Origin: Norana najaformis
Lineage: Eukaryota; Annelida; Clitellata; Crassiclitellata; Hormogastridae
Assembly (NCBI GenBank): GCA_964023275.1
Contig: OZ029916.1
Location: 16,880,150 to 16,944,149 of the forward strand
Direction: 5' to 3'
DNA: 64,000 nt
The position numbers and the translations under genes are program-made. Shown in pieces: positions 3,788 through 59,400 of the stretch (positions within the stretch are counted from its first letter, which is position 1; each line of letters starts with the position of its first letter). The notes beneath the pieces were generated by a model. It made no database searches, was not told the DNA's origin, and was given only the letters and a program-made list of their open reading frames with translations.

Positions 3788-6700
3788 GTAAAGCTGTTCA
3801 GTGCAATACATGTTGTTTGAAATTGTATATTGTTGTATTTTTAAAGCTAGTTAGATAAGGTACCTGCTAACTGCAAATTTATTACTTGTCCTATATGGCA
3901 GCAGCAACATAAGAACCATACCACCAATTCTTATAGGTTGCATTGCAAGACAACAAATTCTGTGACGTTCCATGATTCAGACAGACCTTACTGTTTTCCT
4001 TGTTCTGCGATAGTATTGAGATGAATCACGTACTTACGGAAATCAGAAAATTCTTTGAATGTGTTTAAAATAGTGTTTATCAATAAAATTAAAAAACACA
4101 GAAAGTTACCTGGAAGCCAGCCAAAAGATCTTTGCTTGTTATAGCCAAATTCATTTTTTCATTTTTATTATAACAAAACTCATTTTAAAGAGGTTTTAGC
4201 TATACATATTTGTTATCAGCATTTCTTAAATCGTACACCATGGCCTTTAACAGTACTTACCAGTCATGGTTTTGTTATAATGTGAGTATTGAACCTAGAC
4301 ATTATTGTTTAAACAGACCTGTCTTAACATTGTACTTCTGAATGGAACTGAAGGTACAGTGATTTGACAGTTGCAATCAGTGAAGGAGAACTGGGAAGGG
4401 ATGAACTTGGTCCTGCACTCAGAGTCACCAATCCCAATACATAATTATCCTTTCTAGGCAGTAATTAGTAGAGGCAACATGTAAGTTATATTATACCTGA
4501 GCATTGTATGTTATTGTTTTGATGTGCAGTTCAGTCAGATTTAAACCAGTTCAAAGAAGATTAGTTTGTGAGGTTGTTTAGCAGGGAGTTGTGATGTTTG
4601 GGAAAGTGCTGACTGAACAGAATTGGCATCTGAATTGGCTCAAGACATATTATTTTCAGTTATACTGTATTTTTGCAAGGGAATGAAAATAACGTTTGCC
4701 TCACAAAAACCAGTTGCTTTTACACCTCATGCTTGACTGTTGGCAGACTTTTGGCGACGCCAGATAACAGTAGTCACAGATCAGTGCACAGACTTTTCGG
4801 AGGAGCTTCAGCAGCTGCAGAAGATGCTGCATTTTCCAGAAGAGGTGGCATTGCAGCTAACAGAGAATGAGCATACTCTTTTCCAAAATGTGCATCCAGT
4901 AGAATTTGTTCGCCAAGTCTGTCTTGACAAGTTCAAGCCTATGTCTGCCATTTGCCTGCCTGGCATCCAGGACCTTGTACACAGGTTTCAACAGGTACCT
5001 TTCACCTCTGAGTCTGGAGTTTGTTTCTTGTTGTGTTCTATTGTCTCAGTCAAATTTAGCCATAGGGAAAATAATTCTGTCTTATCAAGTATATGTAATT
5101 ACACAGGTGATAGGATGTTGTAGGTTTTGTGTAATACAGAGTTAACTCATGTTTGATAATCTGTGTATATATATATATATGTATATGTTTGCTTATTGTG
5201 TTAATGACTTACTGTTTACTTAGAGCAGCTCATATTGAATAGGGAAGTGTGGAGGTGATGGCTTTCCTTCCTAATCCCAAACTAACAAGGGACAGGTAGT
5301 ACAATATCATAGAGAGATTATTGGTGGGGCTCAACATATAAACACTGAAAGTGGCCATCTTGGCACAAATCATCTTTTACGTTGCTCGTCATGGGTTGTA
5401 CTAACTTGGGCATACAAAATGGGTTTCTAGGACAAATTGCTACCAATGTTTTATGAACATTTGGATTAATTATTGTAGAAACTTTGCTTTAACGTCAAGA
5501 AACTGTATGCATTCATATTGCAAGGGGAGTTGCTTGTTGGTATACCCCATATTGGTGTATAACCTTTATATTTGGGACAGCTTGACTGTGGTGGACACAT
5601 AGTTACTTGTGCATTTAGAAAGACTGTTTATGTTGCACATCTGGCAAAATTGGTCCAAATGAGGCAGTCAGCCAGGATAGCCAGCATACACTGCAGGTGA
5701 CGGCTGTAAAACAGAGGCTGATTTGTGATTCATGGCACATAGAATTTAAGAAATTTTGGGAACATATACACTTCCATGGTCGAAGCCATCAACAGCCTGA
5801 ACTTGGACATCATGGTTACTATAGAGACGTGGCACCAATGTGCATTGCCCTTTGGAGATTGGCTCACCCTGAATTCAGTATCAGCCTGCCACTTGCCTCC
5901 TCACATGGCATCAAGGAGGTGGCAGACTTGCAGTCTTTCATCAATCAAATATGTGGGCAAAGCAGACTGAACTCCCCAAGAGTGCAGTTACTGCATCAGA
6001 TCAGAATCATATGGTTAAATTTATCTTTTGTTGATGCTGAGACTCTTATCCACTCCTTCACTCAGCTATGCCTGGACTACTGCTGAAGTTTTGCCATCTA
6101 TAGGTTGAGCCCGTCCTCAACTGCACCAACTTGCCAAAATGTTTTGCCTGTTTTGAGTTATGTAAGACATGCAGCACTGGCTTCTGGTTGAAGACAGGAT
6201 TTTATTCAAGATCTTTGTCGTGGTGCAAGCCTCGATAGTCAGTGCAGCCCAAGATTACATCAGAGAGCTCAGCATTCTTGTCTCCAGCCAAACCAGGTTT
6301 TACAACCCATGGGGACTTGTTGGACCCGTGCTGCCATGCAATAATGTGGGCATATTGTGCTTTCTCATGCATTGGACCATCCTTCTGGAACACTCTTCCA
6401 CTAAAACTATATACTGTTCCACCACAGGCACTCAAGAAACATTTTCAACCTATCCTAAGTCACACATTTTAAAATCGGTTATATGTTCATGTTTAATGCG
6501 TTTGCAAGGTTCTTATGGGGATTTTACAAACAAGTAGGTAGATACATACATAAATGGTATTAGTGTGTATAGAGTGTTGTCAGAGATGAGTAGGTTCACA
6601 TCTTGTCCACTACTGCTACCCAAAAACAAACAAAACATGTAAAACTCAGAAACGTTGAACTAAGTTTGTTACTGTTGTTTCATAACTAGGCCAGATCATG

Positions 6701-24700: not shown

Positions 24701-27700
24701 GAAGTGTGGAAATGGGGAACCTGTAAATCCCAACAGATTTATAGCTGGTGTGGCACTGTGGATATGATACTAGCTAGCACAGTGAAGTTAAGCAAAGTTG
24801 AGTGTGGCAGGAATGGATAACCAACTGTCCATGAAATGCCAAGCCATCTGGACTAATTCAGCCTACCATCCCTACTTGTGGTGTGGCTAAATGCCGATGC
24901 AAGTGGGGTGGCTCAATGAGAGTCTTGTTGGATTTCTGTCTTGTTTGTGTTTCACCCATTCAATACCTAAGACTATGTTGTATGTCCAAAGACAGAGTTA
25001 TAGTCAGCTGCTAAAAGCTTGGATGGAGAAAATAAATCAGATTTAGTAGCACATTAAACTTTAGCAGACTGGCCAAGAATTCATGTGCCTAGCTATATCC
25101 TGTTCAGTATTTCAAGTGACAGTGCATTGATTTTATTTTGGTTTCAATGTACTTCAGATGGAGTCGATGTAAATGTTCAACACCCTGTTAGCACAACTAA
25201 AAGCAACAAGTCTGATGATGGCATTTATCCGAGCTGCTATCAGGTGTCGTCACTGAATGAGAACAAGGCAAAGAATATATGTCGCAAACAGCCATCCGGA
25301 GTTGTCAAATATCCTTTCACTTTCACTAATAAAATCTGTCTGTAGGGGCAGATATTTAAATAACAGTAAGATTTAATACATTACAACAGTAAGATTTAAT
25401 ATATTACAAAGTGTCATCGTGGAACATTTTATGAGACTAAAGGGTTCTTTAGTTACTCCCATTATCTATTTTTCTTTGTTTCACTCAGGTTGCCTCAAAC
25501 TCATCAAGATTAGTTTGAAGCTGTTAGGAAATGGTTTTTTTTACAGTCAGTATGAATAGAAACCCATTAACCCTTTCTCATTCTGATGTTGAATGATCTT
25601 GATTGTTTAACCTTCTCTTCATATTTTTAACTCTGGTAGTCATTTAATGAATGATAACATCTGTTTTCAAAACCTTTAGTGCTGTGTTCTGTCAATACAT
25701 GAAAACCACTTCAATTATAAGCAGATTTCATTTTTATGTCCGGATAATGTAAAGGGGTTCTTTGATGTAATGGTTGTCTGTTGTTAGTTGTTACATTAGA
25801 ATGTGTTGCATTATGTTAGATGGTCTCTGTGAGATGTATCTGATGTTAGATTCCTTAGTTTAAGTGTTTACTCATACTGAGAAGCATCTGATGAGAACTT
25901 ATCCAGCTGGAATGCGGATTGACTCCTCCAACTTTAATCCAATTCCATTCTGGGCTTGTGGCATACAGATGGCAGCGCTGAACTATCAGACAGAAGGTAG
26001 TGACTCTTAAGGTATTATGTATGTATTTATATATGTATGTATGTATGTAAGTAAACATTTTATTTTGGCTCCTAAGTGCTTCTTGAAGGCATTTCTTGCT
26101 AGCCTAACATTAAGAACAAGTTAATCCGGTTCACGTTCGGAGTTTCTGGTCTGTGTTGCACTGAGGATGAGGATCGATGACAGATGCATTTCCTCACAGG
26201 TAGTGGAAGACTGGACATCTGTAAAGTCACCAGGTCTCTGCAGGATAGGCATTCATCAGTAGCTGGCTGGCTGGCTGGTTGTAGAACCTCTTTGAAACTG
26301 ATGGTCAGTGCCACTTCACAGATCCTGCTCACTGTTGTATCACTAAATCCAAGACTTTCTGGTCTCAGATGTTGGGAGCCTGATGCTGAGGATGAGGAAT
26401 GCTGTTGCTGCCCAAACAGGAACCAGTCTACCTGTTACAGTTAGAGCCTCTGACTCAACAGCTGTTAGGAAAAAAATAGAAATCTTAAGACTACTTTGGG
26501 AACTTTATTGATGAAAAAAAGATGCTCTAATGATTAAATGCAAATCTTTGTATAATCGTGACTGCTGTGCTTTCAGCATCTTATGGCAAGGTTGTAGGTT
26601 TAGTCTGTAGATTTATTACAGATGTTTGGTTCTGAATTTTTAGATCAGTGGCTTCACATCAATTCTGCCATGTTTGAACAGAATGGACATGCTGGATACG
26701 TACTAAAGCCACGAGTCTTGTGGGACAAGACCCAAGCGACCCACGGCAAATTCAATCCCTTTGATAAAGACTCTATACATGCCTGTTCTAATCTCCTAAC
26801 AGTGTTGGTAAGTGTGGAGCTACACAGACTTTAACCTTCATAACCATGCTCGGCTATTTGGGGCTATGCATGTGCAGCTCAAGCAGATCCACTGAACTTG
26901 ACCCTTTGCCTGCCAGATATGTATAGTCAGTAATCTTATCCCTTCCAAATATATTGGGATTTTGTTTGCAAAAGCCCTCCAGACCTATGTCCACATGATT
27001 TCTGGATTGCTTGATCCATTTTAAATAATCCCTAACCATCTAAAGCGAGTTCACTGTCCATGATATCAAAGTTTATCCATAACTCTGCTATTCCAGTTGT
27101 GTCAGGAATCTCATTAGCCACACATAATTCCAAATCTGCTTTTTTATAACACTTACTATACGTCTCACACTGGCAAACATGCACTTTAAAACTTCACTGC
27201 CTCCAGTTTCCTTACACCTTCTGTTTTTCCTACTGTAAGCTTCTTTTGTCTCAATAGTTTATCTTTGCTTTTGTCTCAATAGTTTATCTTTGTGTTTGCA
27301 TTAGTACTCATTTACTGCCCTATAGGATAAAGGGCTGAGTGGGTGCCAGGTGGCATGTTATTCAATGTATAGTCACCCATCCAAGGATTGATTTTGCTTA
27401 TGGTCAGTGTCTGTGGATATTGTATCAACAGCACTATGCTGCCACCTGTTGTGTGAGAACTAGGAAATGTTCACTGTCCAATCTGCCCCAAGGAGAGCAT
27501 GCACAGATCATTATACCTATGTGCATCCCAAGTTCTTTTATATATCAGCTATATGTTATGCATCACTTCTTTTGGTTTTAGCTCATTTCTGGGCAGTATG
27601 TCTGTCCAAGTAATTTTCAAGCATGCCCTCAAGTCGAAGTCCAGCTGTGGGGAATTCCAGTTGACTGTGCAAAGCACAAGAGCAAAGCTGTCACACGGAA

Positions 27701-30700: not shown

Positions 30701-33700
30701 TGGTTTTAGCGACTGGTTACATAATTACAAGGATTTACAAGAATTAGTTTTCATAGCGACCAGTTACATACCCTAATTAATTCCATTATAATTGTCTTTT
30801 GTCAAATAATGGACTGTCATTCTGCTTTGTACATGCATTTACTTTTTATCCCTTTGGTGCCAAGTCACTATGTTAAAGGCGCCTTTTTAATTACAGTCAT
30901 TATTTTAATGTAACAGAATACTTAAATAAATGAATAACTTATTTGAACTGAGTGAAATTGCTACAAGTGCATTAGGCTTTCCCTTTTGTGGTACCTGCAG
31001 AATGGGGGCAAGGTAAACGTGGCAATAAAATCTGTTATACTGATTCTAATTGGCTGTGGACAGCATTTACTTGTTAATTTCACAAAGCAACTGTTTGATG
31101 TGGGTTTTAATTTAAGTGAATGTGCTTTAGTTTGGCAGATTTTTTATTGATTTGCATGAACAATGATGGCTGGTGGTTGACTGCTAACATGTCTGCCTGT
31201 TGCCACTGTGTACTTTAAGCCCACGAGGACAACTTGTCCAGTTGTTGATTTCTGTTAGATTTGGGCTTCAGTCAAAAGGTCATTCTACCATAGCACCATA
31301 TGTCTCTGAGGATTACTTAGAATAGAGACATGTAAGAAACATTAACTTAGTTAAGCCAAAATTAACAAAATTCATGGGCCAACTTTGCAATTGTTTGGTT
31401 GACTAGCTAACTGATTTATCTTTGGGTGATATTTGATTGATGCAGGTCTACTGATTAGCTGGATAGTTCTGCAAATCCATTAATTTTGCTGCATTATAGG
31501 TTGGATGACTGACTGATTTTCAAGTTCTTTATCAATCTGGTGATTGGGTGATTTTCGGCTATTTGTTGACTGATTTAACAATTAAATGATATGGTATTTG
31601 TCCAGTTTCTAATAAGGATTTTAATAAACAATTGATTCAGATTGATTTGCTGATTAATTGATTTGTTAAATGAACAGTTCAGTTATTGGGTGGCCAATCA
31701 TAATGATAGACATTGTGTCCATGTAGGTGTTGGTGCAGCTTGGCCGAGCAGAAGAGAAGAGCGACAGCTACGTGCTGGTGGAGGATGTTCAGAGAAGCTG
31801 GGAAACAGAGAAGGGAAGTGGGTCACAAAGAGTCATTGGCTTGGATGAGAAAGTCTGGCTTGTGCAGAGTAGATGGAGAGGCACAGGCCGATTCATTCTA
31901 CAAAAGAACAGCAATGTAAGACTTCAGCCTCTCAGAGTTAGGGATCTGAAATGACACATCATATTGTACCTTCTAGTGAGGGAAAAGCAAGAGAGGGCAC
32001 TAAAGATTTTGTCATTATAGGGTTGCAGTTCTTTTGTTATAGGAACTTTTGCCTGACTTGGGGTACAGTAGCAAACATTCACAGACTGACCACCTCTCCT
32101 TGCTAGTTATGTTGCAAGCAAGAAAATCTAAGTTTGCAGGTGGTCGTCAAAAGCCACATAATGACTACTGTGAACTCAATCACCATTTGTCGTTTGTTTC
32201 CTAGACTCATTTTGTGCATTGCTGTTATGACCTCTTTGTTTGAAGCAGAAATAAACAGTGAATGAATGAATGTGTAAGTAAATATATGTGACCCTGTCTG
32301 AGAAAAGCCTCATGAAGTAAAAAACTCAAAATTGGGTTTGATACTGTACTGAATTAGCCTGGAATTGCTGAATAATTAGGCAAAAATTACGTGCTTCTAT
32401 CACAAATGGTAAAAAACTTACAATTGGAAATTACAAATATTTTAAAGGTGTAGGTCTCTTTGAGGTTACTTTTGAGAAATCATGAGTTAAAGTTTGCCAT
32501 AAGCATGTATGACCCAGCCTAAGTCACTGTGGTTAGGGGTTTCAAATGTTTATGAGTATAGTAAATTGGAGTGTGTGTAATTGCCTCCTGAGCCTACCAT
32601 CATTGAAATCTCCACGAAAAAACTGGTTTCAGACTGTTTTTTTACATTGTTGCATGATCTTGTATTATATTTCTGTATATGCAGTGTTGTTGTAAAGTTT
32701 GGGCATTTGTTTTGCCCTAATAAAGATTACTTACTTACTTACGAAATATTTGACTTCATCATTTGCATAATAAGCAATGCACATGCTTCAAATTAGGGCA
32801 CCAAGATGCATATTGAATTAAGTTTTAATGCAGTGCATCATAATAAAATTGAAAATAAAATACTTAGAGGGTAAGGACTTAAGTTTTTTAGCTAACTAAA
32901 AAGGAATATAAATGTGCGAAGAACTAATTTTGACCAGTTTTATGCCTTCACGCCTTCTGAATGTGTTTCCTATGAATAAACTTTTCCAACTTTGTCAGGG
33001 TTTTCAGGCATGGTCACATATATTACAGATGCATACGATTATAAAAGTATTTGTGTTATTATGCAAATTAATATCCTTAGGTGTGTAAATTACAAATGTA
33101 TACGTATATCAAGGTGTTTGTGTTATTATGCAAATTAATTTCCTCAGGTGTGTAACTACACCTTAGCTTGTCAAAACCTAAGAATTTTTTCTTGTAAACT
33201 TATAAACTAGTTCCCGGAGCAATACTCTTTCATTGTCTTTGTGCTGTGATCTCCTATGATTCAGTTTTACTTGTATCTTATTTTAATAGAACAGATTTAC
33301 TTTTCTGGCACAGAGACACGAAGGCTCACTGTTGTCCGAGTCAGGATCTGACTGTGACCCTCAGTCATTCCTCGTCTGCATTCACAGTGCAGTTCCAGGC
33401 ATTCCATACACCATTCTCCAAGTCCCAGTATCCAGTTGTGCTCAAGATGTTATTGTGCAGGTATGACTGGCTCAGTGGGTCAGGGCATCACAGTTCATCA
33501 CGATTCATTTGGGTCACTGGAGTTAGAGATTTATCGTCACTGTAAAAGTTGAATTTTTATTATATTGTGATTTTTCTTTAGCTGTAAGTCTCAAAAGACT
33601 GAAATTAACTTCAGTTAATTTAAGCATTGTTTTCATTCATCTGAATTCTTGCAATTACGTCACTTATGAATAATAATAGTTCATCCTAACTGTGAATTGA

Positions 33701-53400: not shown

Positions 53401-56400
53401 CTCTGCTTGCCTGTCTGATTTTGCTGACGTATGGTACATTACCATGTCAGTGAAAGAATTTCCTTTTATTGCTTGGCTAGCAGCTATTTAATTACTTTTT
53501 AGTAGCAAATGCAACTTGTAGTGAAGTTTCTGTTGACTTTGAAAAACCTGATTCATGCTGATCATAATAATTTGTTTTTTACTTACCTAGTGGCACATTT
53601 TGCAATTTCAGTTGAATAAAAAATTGTTGTTTGGTCTATGCTGAACAAAACAAAATAAAAAGATATTCATCATGTTAAACTCCTTCATCTCATAAAATGT
53701 ATTTATTTTATCTAGCAACTAGTGTTTCTTAATGAATAGCAAGCAAAAGACAGTTTGGTGTTGGAGGACTACATCATACATGGACACATGGTGTGTTAAC
53801 AAATGTCTTACTTACTTAATTGGTTTTATGAAGCTAAAAGAAGCAGTAGTACCGGTTTTAAAGTTGAGATACACTGGCAACTGGGCCAAGTATTTTTTAC
53901 AAGAGAAGTTAGAACTATTAAAGGATTTTGTGAATAATTCTCCATGAAAGTGTTGCTTGTCATTTTTGCTAGACTTCCCATGGAGCTAACGATTATATTC
54001 GACTACCTAGCATGGAACGAAATTATCCAGAAGAACGAAGCATACCACCGGAAAGGCATTACTTGGAGGTGCGTGCTAGTGGAGCTTACAATACACAGGA
54101 AAGGGATTATTTGGAGGTGCGTGCAAGTGGAGGTACCTTTGCTAGCGTCCCATTTTTACTGGATGCCAATGGCCAGGATGAAAACACTGCTCAAAGAGAA
54201 GTCTGTTATGCAAACATCACTACAGGTCAGTGTGCAGCCGAGGTTTCTGAGGACACTTATGATCTGACAATCTCTGCAAATGCCGCTGAAGATGCTTCAG
54301 TTTACATGATTGCATCACCAGCGACTGATAATATTTATATGAATGCATCGAAGTGTGCTACGGATTCTGAGGTGACAGACTCGACGCTGGAGGTGGCTTC
54401 ATCGAGTGTGCTGTCTGCTACAGCATCTCAAGAGCAGTCTAGGACACAATCTGTATGTGTGGAGTCTGCTGTTTCTACTGAGCCACTGCCTGGTTCTCCA
54501 TCTAGTTCTTTGCCTCCTAATGCGCAAGACCAAGCACACTCTGATATGCCATCGGCTAGATCATCCATCTTGCGTGCTGCCAAACCATTTACTGAACAGT
54601 CTGCTGTACCGTTGCCTCCCATACCATCTAGTACCACGCTGTCTGCTGTGCCATCCATTTCGCTGTCAAGTGAAATCAAAAGCCAAAATCGTACGAGTGT
54701 TCCTTTACATCTGCCATCTTATGACGAAGCCGTGACATCATCTGATGAGGTGTTATCGAGGTATGGTGATTCACGATTTTCCAGCCGTCCATCGCCTACT
54801 TCTGTGAATACTTCCAGCAGATGTTCAGCGTCACCCACTGACTTTATGTCTTCTAACAATGAACTATCCACAAACTGTGCTTCTGGGATTGCAGAATTCC
54901 CGCCGCCACCACCCTATTCATTACACGGAGTTCTTTCAAAAGGTGCCAATTTGCCACTGAAACAAATCCAAGTGCAGAAACTTCTCGAAGAAATGAATGC
55001 TCCACAAGGAATTCAAGTCATTATCCCCAAGAACCAGTGCCAACATTCCATTGCGTTTACTGACTGCTTCAATAAAATTTGGTAAGTGAGCATTATTCTG
55101 TGAGCATTATTCTGTCAGCCTAGGCAAAAGAATTTGTTAAGTGATAACATTTTAGACCTTGATGTAATTGAACTGCCATAGTGTTTAAAAATTACTGGCT
55201 CTAAGTGCAATACTGTGTTGATTTTATAAAATATCTAGGCTCTTTTTATGCTTGCACATTGCCTTTGCATCTTTGATCCTGTTATCTGTTACATTGTCTT
55301 CTGTCATTTTATAATTTTGCCATCGATGCTTATTTATTTATTTACGCCACTATTACACGTACAAAAGCTAGAAAGCAGGACAGAGTCTTGCAGAGTAAAA
55401 CTTTGGTATTGACGAGTGATGTAAATGTAGATAGCAATTTGGCAGGTTGGACCCTTTGTGGCAGATGATTCCCATTACAACTTGGGCACAGCAACTGAAA
55501 GCACATGATCTCATAACTACCCTGTACTTAGGTTGTTGTAACGTATCAGTATTTGAAGAATGCAACAAGAGGGCAATATGGTGTTAGCAGTGTGTGAATG
55601 TATGATCTAAGGTAGGTATTCCGTGTTTCAAAAGTCAAGCATGCTGTTTTATGCTAAATATGTCATTTAGCAGCAAAAAGTAAAGCTGAAAAAGGCAGTC
55701 TGATGCATTTGATGATAAAGAAGCATGTGTCACAAATAAGATAAGTAGATATGAAAGTGTCACAAATGAGATAAGTAGAGAGTTTGGAACTCTTTGTAAC
55801 TTTTTAGATTAAAAGAGGTCAGAGTGTTTCTAGCATCTCACTAGTATTATTTGTTTATGGATGGATGTTTATGAATTTTTTTTCTTATTATTTTCCATTG
55901 TGCCACAACGGTCAATCTTGGTTTTAGCTTAGTGTATCTTTCTGGTCCTGATGTCAGCCTGGCGAGTCTTGGCTTTGGCCTTGTCAAAACCTATATACCT
56001 CTGAATGGTGATACAGAAGTTCTCGGCTTAGGTTATGGGTGACACAATTTCTTTATTTTTCATTCTATCTCGTCATCTTTAACTCATCACTTTTTCTTAT
56101 TGTAACGTTAGACTAGAAATTCTGTTGATTTATTCATGGCTTTTTGTTTAGGATTAGTGGATGGAATCAGCAAACATGTTCAGCATTTCACTCACTTCTC
56201 CACATTGGCGATCAGCTCATTGCCATCAATGGCGTTACTTCAAATAGCCGTGCTATGGCAAAGAAAATGCTTAAAACATGTTCGGGAAAAACGGATGCAA
56301 CGTTGACAATCAGACGAATTCCCTATGGCAGGGTGGTAGCCATTCGCAAGGATAACAGTTCTGTGGAGTCACTTGGCGTAACTATAGTCAATGGAACAGC

Positions 56401-59400
56401 TGAGGTAGAATATTGCTTAGGTGTTTTTATCTAGGAGGTAACCCATGTGAGAAATTTAGGACACTGTCTTGACAAGTTGGTTCCAGTGCTTTAAATAGCA
56501 TTGGCTCATGTAATGGTCAGCATGGAGACATATTTATCTCATAGTCCTACATCACAACTTAGCAACAAATGCAACATACTACCCACTCTCTTCTTCACAC
56601 TCTTCCCAATAGGTTCTTACATCTCTTCCCAGGCAAGATCTCAAATCTTGTAATCAAGTTTTCTAAATATTCCTCTGATGACCTATAACACCCTCAATCT
56701 CTGTCACCAGTTCATAGCTTACTCCAACTAAGAACTCCTGCTGAGACACATAATTCATTTTCTCATCTTAAGATAAACAATGTGCTTTGGACCTTATTTT
56801 TACTACTCTTCTGAAACAATGCTATGATGTCTTGTGCTCAATTACCACAGCCAATGCCAACCTCTCTCACTGAAGACTGCTTCCTTGTCAGTTTTGCACA
56901 TGCCGTAGTGTATTACTCCTCTTCAAAACCCACCTCTCTCACTCCGGAAGATTTATCAAACTATCTCCCCCTTTTTTACCCTCACTTTCATTTCCAATAT
57001 TCTGGAAAAGATAGTTGTGAATTACTTGAACTGTCACCTCTTGTCCACAACTGTTCCTTCCTTTCCAGTCTGCTTACCACATCTGCCATTCCACTGAAAC
57101 TGCACAACTGTTAACTGTTTGTTGGACTTACCTGCTGCTTTTAATACTGTTGATCATGTCTCAAACGTTGATTCAGTCTTTTTGGTCCTGCTCCTGTATG
57201 GTTCGTGTCTTACCTGCACCCTCATTCTCAGCAGGTTTATTTAATCAGCTCGCTCCAGCACCCATTGTTTATATATACAAAACAACTTATCTTGTAAGTA
57301 CTTTCTTTATATAGCAAATATCAAAGTTGATTTTGAGGCTCGTTTATCTGAGTCTGTCTTACTTATTGTTGCATTTCATAATCCTTTCTCAAAATAAGGA
57401 CATATGTTAGCTTGGGAGAAAGGCAGTCAGTTTGCTACCATTTCACAACAGTGCTTAAATGTAAGGCTTCAGATGATAGTGATAATAAACATTTCAAGTG
57501 AAAGTCAAGGCTTCAGATGATAGTGGTAATAAACATTCGAGTGAAATTCAAGGCTTCAGATGATAGTGATAATAAACATTCAAGTGAAAGTCAAGTTAGC
57601 GAAATGTATAATGTGGCTGAAGCTAGAGAAATGATCATGGGCAGTGACAGTATCAAAACTGAAGATGCAAAGTCTATTAAAGTTACTACAATTCCAAAAT
57701 ACAGGATTGGCATTGAAAATAAGAAGGTAGTTTATGTTACAACTTGTTCTGCCATTCATAAAAAAGTTAGGGTTAAGATTAAACTTTAAAATGTTGCAAT
57801 TTGACTGTAAAACAACTTCCATTTTTCTGCTGGGAGCACAGGCTATATTGGGTTTTCCTTTTGGGTGCTGTGGATGGATATTGTGTTCTTGTGGGGGATA
57901 AGGTTCATGTGTTTCAACATGCTTACCTACTGTGGTCTGACTGCTGATTTACCTAGCCTCTTGGATTTCTCTTGGGCTTCTTCTGCAGATTTTGTCTTAT
58001 TACTATGGCTTCTTGTTAAGGGACCTTTTATTGATGCCTTATAGGTAACTGTAATGATGCTACAAAAGTCGTTAGAATAGTTTATAAACTTCTGCTCATA
58101 ACAATCATTGAACTATCTGCCTAGAATAATCTTTCACTGACAGTCCTTGCTGAAGAAATATTTCCAGCTTACCTTCCTTCGTGCCTTTTTAGATCTGTCA
58201 GATAGCCATATATGCTGTGCCTTTTAATAAGTTTAATAGGCACTACATAAATTTCTAGCTCCCTACGAAGTTTGGTCACATTTACCAGACTTGTGTGACA
58301 TATTTAGTACTTCAACTGGCCTGGTTAGCTACATCGGTAAGTGCGTACACCAAAGAACTTCTGTGCATGAGAATCCCAGGTTCGCGTCCCGGTCGTGGCT
58401 TATTTCAGAGATTTAAATCTCAGGCTAGTACGGTCCATGCACGGGGACCTTAAATGACGTGGCGCCCATTCAAACAGGCAGCGGTGGTGAAGGATCTCAC
58501 TCGATAAATTCATTGCAAAATGAGCAGGGTCCAGGCCATACGTCGCTATATAAAACCTATACATGTACATTTCTTAGACACTAGATTTAAGACATTGTGC
58601 ATCTAGATATGTAACAACATTTGGAGTTGGAGATTAGTCCATACATAACAGCATATTTATAATGTTACAGTTCTGAACTCATCTGACTGGTAATTTTTCT
58701 AAGGTAATTGCAAATGTATTACATATCTTTGTGTGCAATATTCATCGGAGGTATAGTCCTGTGGATGAGAAGTTGTTAAACTACACAAGAATCGATCCAT
58801 GAATGGACTAAATCCTGTTGCAGAAGTATGTTGTAAGCAACCGTTTTTGTTTTAGATTGGTTTCGTTGATCCAACTGGTCTGGCAAGGGAGAGTGGTCTA
58901 GAAGAGAAAGCGCCAACCATGAGTGGAATTGGTGGAGGTGGAAGCTGGTGGATTACAGAGATCAACCACCAACCTCTCAATCTGTTCTACAAAGATGATG
59001 AGGTTGGTTTTATCGCAGATGATTGCACTTTCATCTGGTCGGTGGAATTTATAGATTTTGGCATTTATTTGACTTTGAGCAAGAAGAGCATACAAAGATG
59101 CCTTGGATATAAGAGTATTACTGCTCAGCATAAAATTGCTCAGCTAGTTTAGGTTGCTTTTAGCTCAAAGAGCTGTACATCTTCATTTCATGTATATGGG
59201 TTGCAGATCTTTTTGTTCTACAGAGAAGAGTGACCGTCTCAAATTTCCACAGTGCTGGACAGAAGTAGTGCCACAACCTGTCCATTATTCTGGAATATAA
59301 GTTATATAGTCACCTGCACTTTGAGCTCATTAGGTTTTCTTTGCCATTATTGTGCCAGACATTAAAAATGATTGAGTTTGGTCATATATGTAGTTTTGTG

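Follow-up and report, generated by a model that had tools for sequence, protein, structure and literature searches.

The phospholipase C gene and its intron

The plus strand of the window, the 64-kb stretch of DNA analysed here, carries a phospholipase C (PLC) gene. Its X box, Y box and C2 exons are closest to PLC-epsilon chains in a search against solved structures. The upstream exons, which we take to be the N-terminal and EF regions, are also best matched by PLC-epsilon chains in this search. The RA exon is matched more weakly, with PLC-epsilon at the head of the table (24 bits and an E-value of about 2e-5 for 2c5l and 2byf). A RasGEF domain near the N-terminus is a feature of PLC-epsilon. 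Upstream, at 4737-5120, there is a RasGEF match of 19.5 bits, under the family cut-off of 23.1. Judged by these sequence matches, the gene is PLC-epsilon, and it carries a very probable intron at 25309-25871.

Two other regions of the window have coding potential. An open reading frame at 43317-43826 matches the reverse transcriptase RVT_1 (48.9 bits) and is probably a retroelement remnant. The region 53973-56431 has a 370-residue open frame without a Pfam match. At 56129-56431 it gives a PDZ match of 21.7 bits, under the family cut-off of 23.2. This region is perhaps another gene.

The features of the intron and its exons are the following (a slash marks an exon-intron boundary).

25158..25308, plus strand: exon with the start of the Y box, closing with AA; start tentatively placed from TTCAG, end at the AT-AC donor boundary; gap-free to 6pmp and 9ax5
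25309..25317, plus strand: putative U12-type AT-AC 5' splice site ATATCCTTT; 13.6 bits, hand-typed matrix
25309..25871, plus strand: very probable U12-type AT-AC intron, phase 2, 563 bases; from sequence, frame, enumeration of joins and paralogues
25338..25345, plus strand: weak rival GT donor TCT/GTCTGT, just 5' of the in-frame stop TAG at 25343-25345; -1.6 bits
25851..25859, plus strand: probable branch site TTCCTTAGT; 7.7 bits, hand-typed matrix
25870..25871, plus strand: 3' splice site AC (TTTAC/T), read from the sequence
25872..25996, plus strand: next exon, Y-box core, opening with T; gap-free join; the ordinary donor AAG/GTAGTG follows

The upstream exon ends with GTTGTCAA at 25308 (..RKQPSGVV + AA), and the downstream exon opens with TCATACTGAG at 25872. 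The intron lies in phase 2 and splits the codon of an Asn at the start of the Y box of PLC-epsilon. We tested 74 residues across the 25308/25872 join. Gap-free alignment covered 68 positions with both 6pmp (E 3.7e-23) and 9ax5 (E 1.1e-22). An earlier note on this DNA had claimed that splicing here yields the expected length and sequence of the Y box, and the PLC-epsilon structures bear this out. The exon ends, the intron ends and TTCCTTAGT at 25851-25859 have the letters and coordinates that it gave. Likewise, it was right that the donor is the AT-AC consensus; ATATCCTTT matches it in full.

Other joins of the exon pair

We scanned donors at 25270-25345 and acceptors at 25850-25881 for GT-AG, GC-AG, AT-AC and AT-AG pairs. 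Nine joins in this range keep the HTEKHL motif, and only 25308/25872 is gap-free. The U12 donor score of 25309 is 13.6 bits; the other eight have -8.8 or less.

The earlier note also stated that no GT-AG pair keeps HTEKHL. As worded, this is wrong. The GT-AG join 25280/25865 keeps the frame and the motif, with seven residues fewer and a donor of -4.8 bits. The join 25337/25865 does the same with twelve residues more and a donor of -1.6 bits. Two more GT-AG joins, 25300/25882 and 25303/25882, are in frame but cut into HTEKHL.

The rival GT-AG donors score from -5.4 to -1.6 bits, compared with 1.8 to 8.3 at seven of the eight neighbouring junctions, whose figures use the best or the best-fitting donor and are thus biased in favour of the neighbours. 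GT-AG joins were found at the X2-X3 and X3-X4 boundaries; at X3-X4 the best donor and the best fit belong to different joins. The eighth neighbour examined, the junction from pre-Y to Y, gave no join. For this exon pair, GT-AG joins are possible on paper and poor. We set them aside for their donor scores and the altered length of the protein.

Splicing signals and their chance expectation

With splice-site weight matrices typed by hand and untrained on this animal, the U2 donor score of the 25309 site is -9.5 bits, and its +5 position is C. The branch motif TTCCTTAGT has a single adenine, A25857, separated from the exon by 14 intron bases. The earlier note had placed a motif close to TTCCTTRAY about 14 bases upstream. 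The position stands; the motif departs from this consensus at the eighth base, where G replaces the second A. Compared with TCCTTAAC, TCCTTA is retained, and the two bases after it are G and T where the consensus has A and C. On the same matrices, this branch has 7.7 bits versus 9.4 to 13.1 bits in the other five U12-type copies described below. The pyrimidine fraction at -20 to -4 is 0.65, within a spread of 0.53 to 0.88 across nine copies.

The motifs are not significant by themselves. ATATCCTTT occurs once on both strands of the 64 kb, with a shuffle mean of 1.00. TTCCTTRRY occurs 3 times, versus 5.52 expected. A chance motif was considered and set aside: about one ATATCCTTT per window is expected, and the argument for the intron is built on its position, the reading frame and the paralogues instead. 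The motif has weight because it sits at the only listed boundary that yields a gap-free protein.

In a scan of both strands of the window, 25309 is the only U12 donor above 12 bits; a site at 33071 has 11.7 bits. The chance of a donor of at least 12 bits within 24 positions is about 2e-4, a rate from the hand-typed matrices that rests on a single window site, 25309 itself. With the same matrices, the chance of an equally good branch within 16 positions is about 8e-3. Good-looking U12 donors do occur by chance. The intron of the paralogue on contig C2 has a second one, ATATCCTTC, of 12.4 bits and without coding context.

Minor-spliceosome snRNA genes

The host genome (608,420,607 bases, 17 contigs) has genes for at least two of the four minor-spliceosome snRNAs. 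The U12 snRNA has one match, on C8, with 121.5 bits (cut-off 53). The U11 snRNA likewise has one, on C14, with 100.1 bits (cut-off 39). The U12 snRNA gene contains GAGTAAGGAAAATAAC, which is complementary to TTCCTT. An Rfam scan of the window itself gave no match at gathering thresholds.

The same codon in the PLC paralogues

The PI-PLC-Y profile matches at least 23 places in the host genome. Grouped by position, they form 14 gene loci, and the other nine places are later Y exons near one of these. An intron lies in the same codon in 9 of the 14 loci, three epsilon-like and six beta-like. It is in phase 2 and always follows AA, and the next exon completes the Asn codon. U12-type donors are present in six of the nine copies. 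All three epsilon-like introns are AT-AC with ATATCCTT. Among the beta introns, three of the GT-AG subtype begin with GTATCCTT and have U12-like branch sites of 9.4 to 12.0 bits; the remaining three have no U12-type donor and a U2-like look. Their signals are listed by contig.

C4 (window), epsilon-like: ATATCCTTT..AC
C2, epsilon-like: ATATCCTTT..AC, ending TTTAC/T, branch TGCCTTGAC
C5, epsilon-like: ATATCCTTG..AC, ending TGTAC/T, branch GTCCTTAAC
C10, beta-like with U12 signals: GTATCCTTC..AG
Second C4 locus, beta-like with U12 signals: GTATCCTTT..AG
Second C5 locus, beta-like with U12 signals: GTATCCTTT..AG
C6 (L013), beta-like, no U12 donor: degenerate GTAACTTTG, branch-like TTTCTTGAT of 6.6 bits
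C3, beta-like, no U12 donor: GTATATTTA, weak under both matrices
C12, beta-like, no U12 donor: GTAGGTATT, pyrimidine-rich end (0.88)

The C6 intron is possibly half-converted, with the U12-like branch TTTCTTGAT surviving beside a degenerate donor.

In the other five loci (L001, L002, L003, L006 and L007), the reading frame continues through this position and there is no intron. Against solved structures, one beta join is closest to PLC-beta and L001 is closest to PLC-gamma. In the same search, L003 (C11:8852750-8852929) matches PLC-beta-3 with 64.3 bits, zeta with 58.4 and delta with 58.0. The remaining loci were classed by identity over a short stretch. The Y box of L003 shares 56-62% identity with the beta copies. 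By its sequence, it is possibly a beta-like gene that lost the intron.

No similarity between the interiors of the three epsilon introns was found at E 0.01. The exons on either side of them, by contrast, have 65-78% identity across 80 bases. For this reason, the conserved intron ends look selected and not recently copied. The three epsilon-like loci and the two groups of three beta-like loci are scattered over several contigs. This spread suggests a large-scale duplication in this lineage.

Interpretation

The intron at 25309-25871 is very probably an inherited minor intron of the U12-type AT-AC class, present before PLC-beta and PLC-epsilon separated. The reading of the earlier note, a U12-type AT-AC intron, gains support from the gap-free join, the U12 and U11 snRNA genes and the U12-type signals in five sister genes. 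We infer that the intron is spliced, that the minor spliceosome is used, and that A25857 is the branch nucleotide.

The roles of U11, U12 and U6atac in minor splicing are established. Here, U11 would recognise ATATCCTTT and then hand the donor to U6atac. U12 would pair with TTCCTTAGT, leaving A25857 as the branch nucleotide. This base, the only adenine in the motif, would attack the donor, and the AC at 25870-25871 would serve as the 3' splice site. Splicing may be less efficient than with the full consensus because the second usable adenine is G here.

A U2-type GT-AG intron has been weighed for the same exon pair. It would have its donor at 25338 and its acceptor at 25863-25864, and it would add a net twelve residues to the Y box, with a single N replaced by 13. 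Although this join is in frame, stop-free and keeps HTEKHL, its donor of -1.6 bits is under all seven joinable neighbours. The inserted residues are absent from PLC-epsilon chains and from the joins of the eight paralogues. Besides, ATATCCTTT and the paralogue pattern would be left without explanation, and we regard this intron as highly improbable. We give hardly any credence to an AT-AC intron removed by the major spliceosome, as in the AT-AC U2-type class to which some sodium-channel introns belong. According to an excerpt of PMC3584512, AT-AC termini are not confined to U12-type introns. However, the sodium-channel introns of this class in the part of PMC2831892 consulted all have G at +5, and the present intron, with its complete ATATCCTTT, has C there. 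Its U2 donor score of -9.5 bits and the U12-like branch site also speak for removal by the minor spliceosome.

A further alternative concerns the age of the intron and not its U12 type. The epsilon and beta introns could have been inserted separately instead of being inherited. The intron is absent from 5 of the 14 Y-box loci, among them L003 with its 56-62% identity to the beta copies, and the intron interiors have no sense-strand similarity. Moreover, 55 candidate minor-intron gains have been argued (PMC6865273, in part), so gain may be commoner than thought. Against this, nine genes share the codon and the phase, and U12-type signals occur in the beta as well as the epsilon branch. Excerpts of PMC2831892 and PMC3584512 call gain, or a change from U2 to U12, very rare. 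Separate insertion is therefore unlikely, and inheritance from before the split is the reading that we prefer.

Under inheritance, the intron would be ancestral to beta and epsilon. The U12 signals would have been kept in the three epsilon-like copies and in three of the six beta-like ones, while the other three beta-like copies would have drifted toward U2-type signals. The common ancestry and this direction of change are what we infer from the position shared by the nine genes and their signals. The U2-type state would have arisen at least twice because such copies fall in both beta groups, as grouped by sequence identity. It is probable, with less confidence than for the intron itself, that every stage in the decay of a minor intron can be seen at one ancestral position within this genome. 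The series would comprise three AT-AC U12 introns in PLC-epsilon, and three GT-AG U12 and three apparently U2-type introns in PLC-beta, the last with at least two origins, in an intron older than the beta/epsilon split.

A gene finder limited to GT-AG introns would mis-join this exon pair within the catalytic Y box. The nine paralogues form a small natural series for U12 subtype switching and for the change from U12 to U2, within one animal.

Comparison with known systems

In all likelihood, the intron is genuine and an ordinary representative of a class already described. Publications exist on minor introns of PLC genes, on switches of subtype and on the conversion of U12 to U2 introns. A search of open-access text found no paper on a minor intron of PLCE1 or a U12-type intron of PLCE1 or phospholipase C beta; for PLCE1 and the minor spliceosome, it gave a single review, on SR proteins. 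The intron may still be listed in U12DB, MIDB or IAOD. None of the literature cited here names this PLC-epsilon intron in the portions consulted, and the word phospholipase is absent from the consulted part of PMC2846911.

The papers below are cited from parts of their text. U12-type AT-AC introns have the ATATCCTT donor at +1 to +8, a TCCTTAAC branch near the 3' end and an AC acceptor (PMC2831892). They have no polypyrimidine tract, and either of two adenines in the branch consensus is usable as the branch point (PMC3584512). Minor introns are biased away from phase 0 (PMC10639083, PMC7367187). The intron described here shares the donor, the AC acceptor and a branch-like motif near it, and its phase 2 fits the bias. 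It differs in the branch, with G for the second A and T for the final C.

Phospholipase C is among the families rich in minor introns, with 60% of the human PLC genes (PMC6865273). In PLC-delta, exons 3 and 4 are separated by a U12 intron of the GT-AG subtype (PMC2603472). The gene family and the intron class are the same as here, and neither paper, in the parts consulted, says where such an intron lies in PLC-epsilon or beta.

In orthologous clusters, U12 introns have been described to switch subtype and to convert to U2 introns, and conversion prefers the GT-AG subtype (PMC2831892, in part). Among the copies here, 3 of the 6 with GT-AG ends and none of the 3 with AT-AC ends look converted, numbers too small for a statistical test. 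As in those clusters, AT-AC U12, GT-AG U12 and U2-like introns occupy one homologous position. In the part of PMC2831892 consulted, the three states are found among species; here, they are found among the paralogues of one genome.
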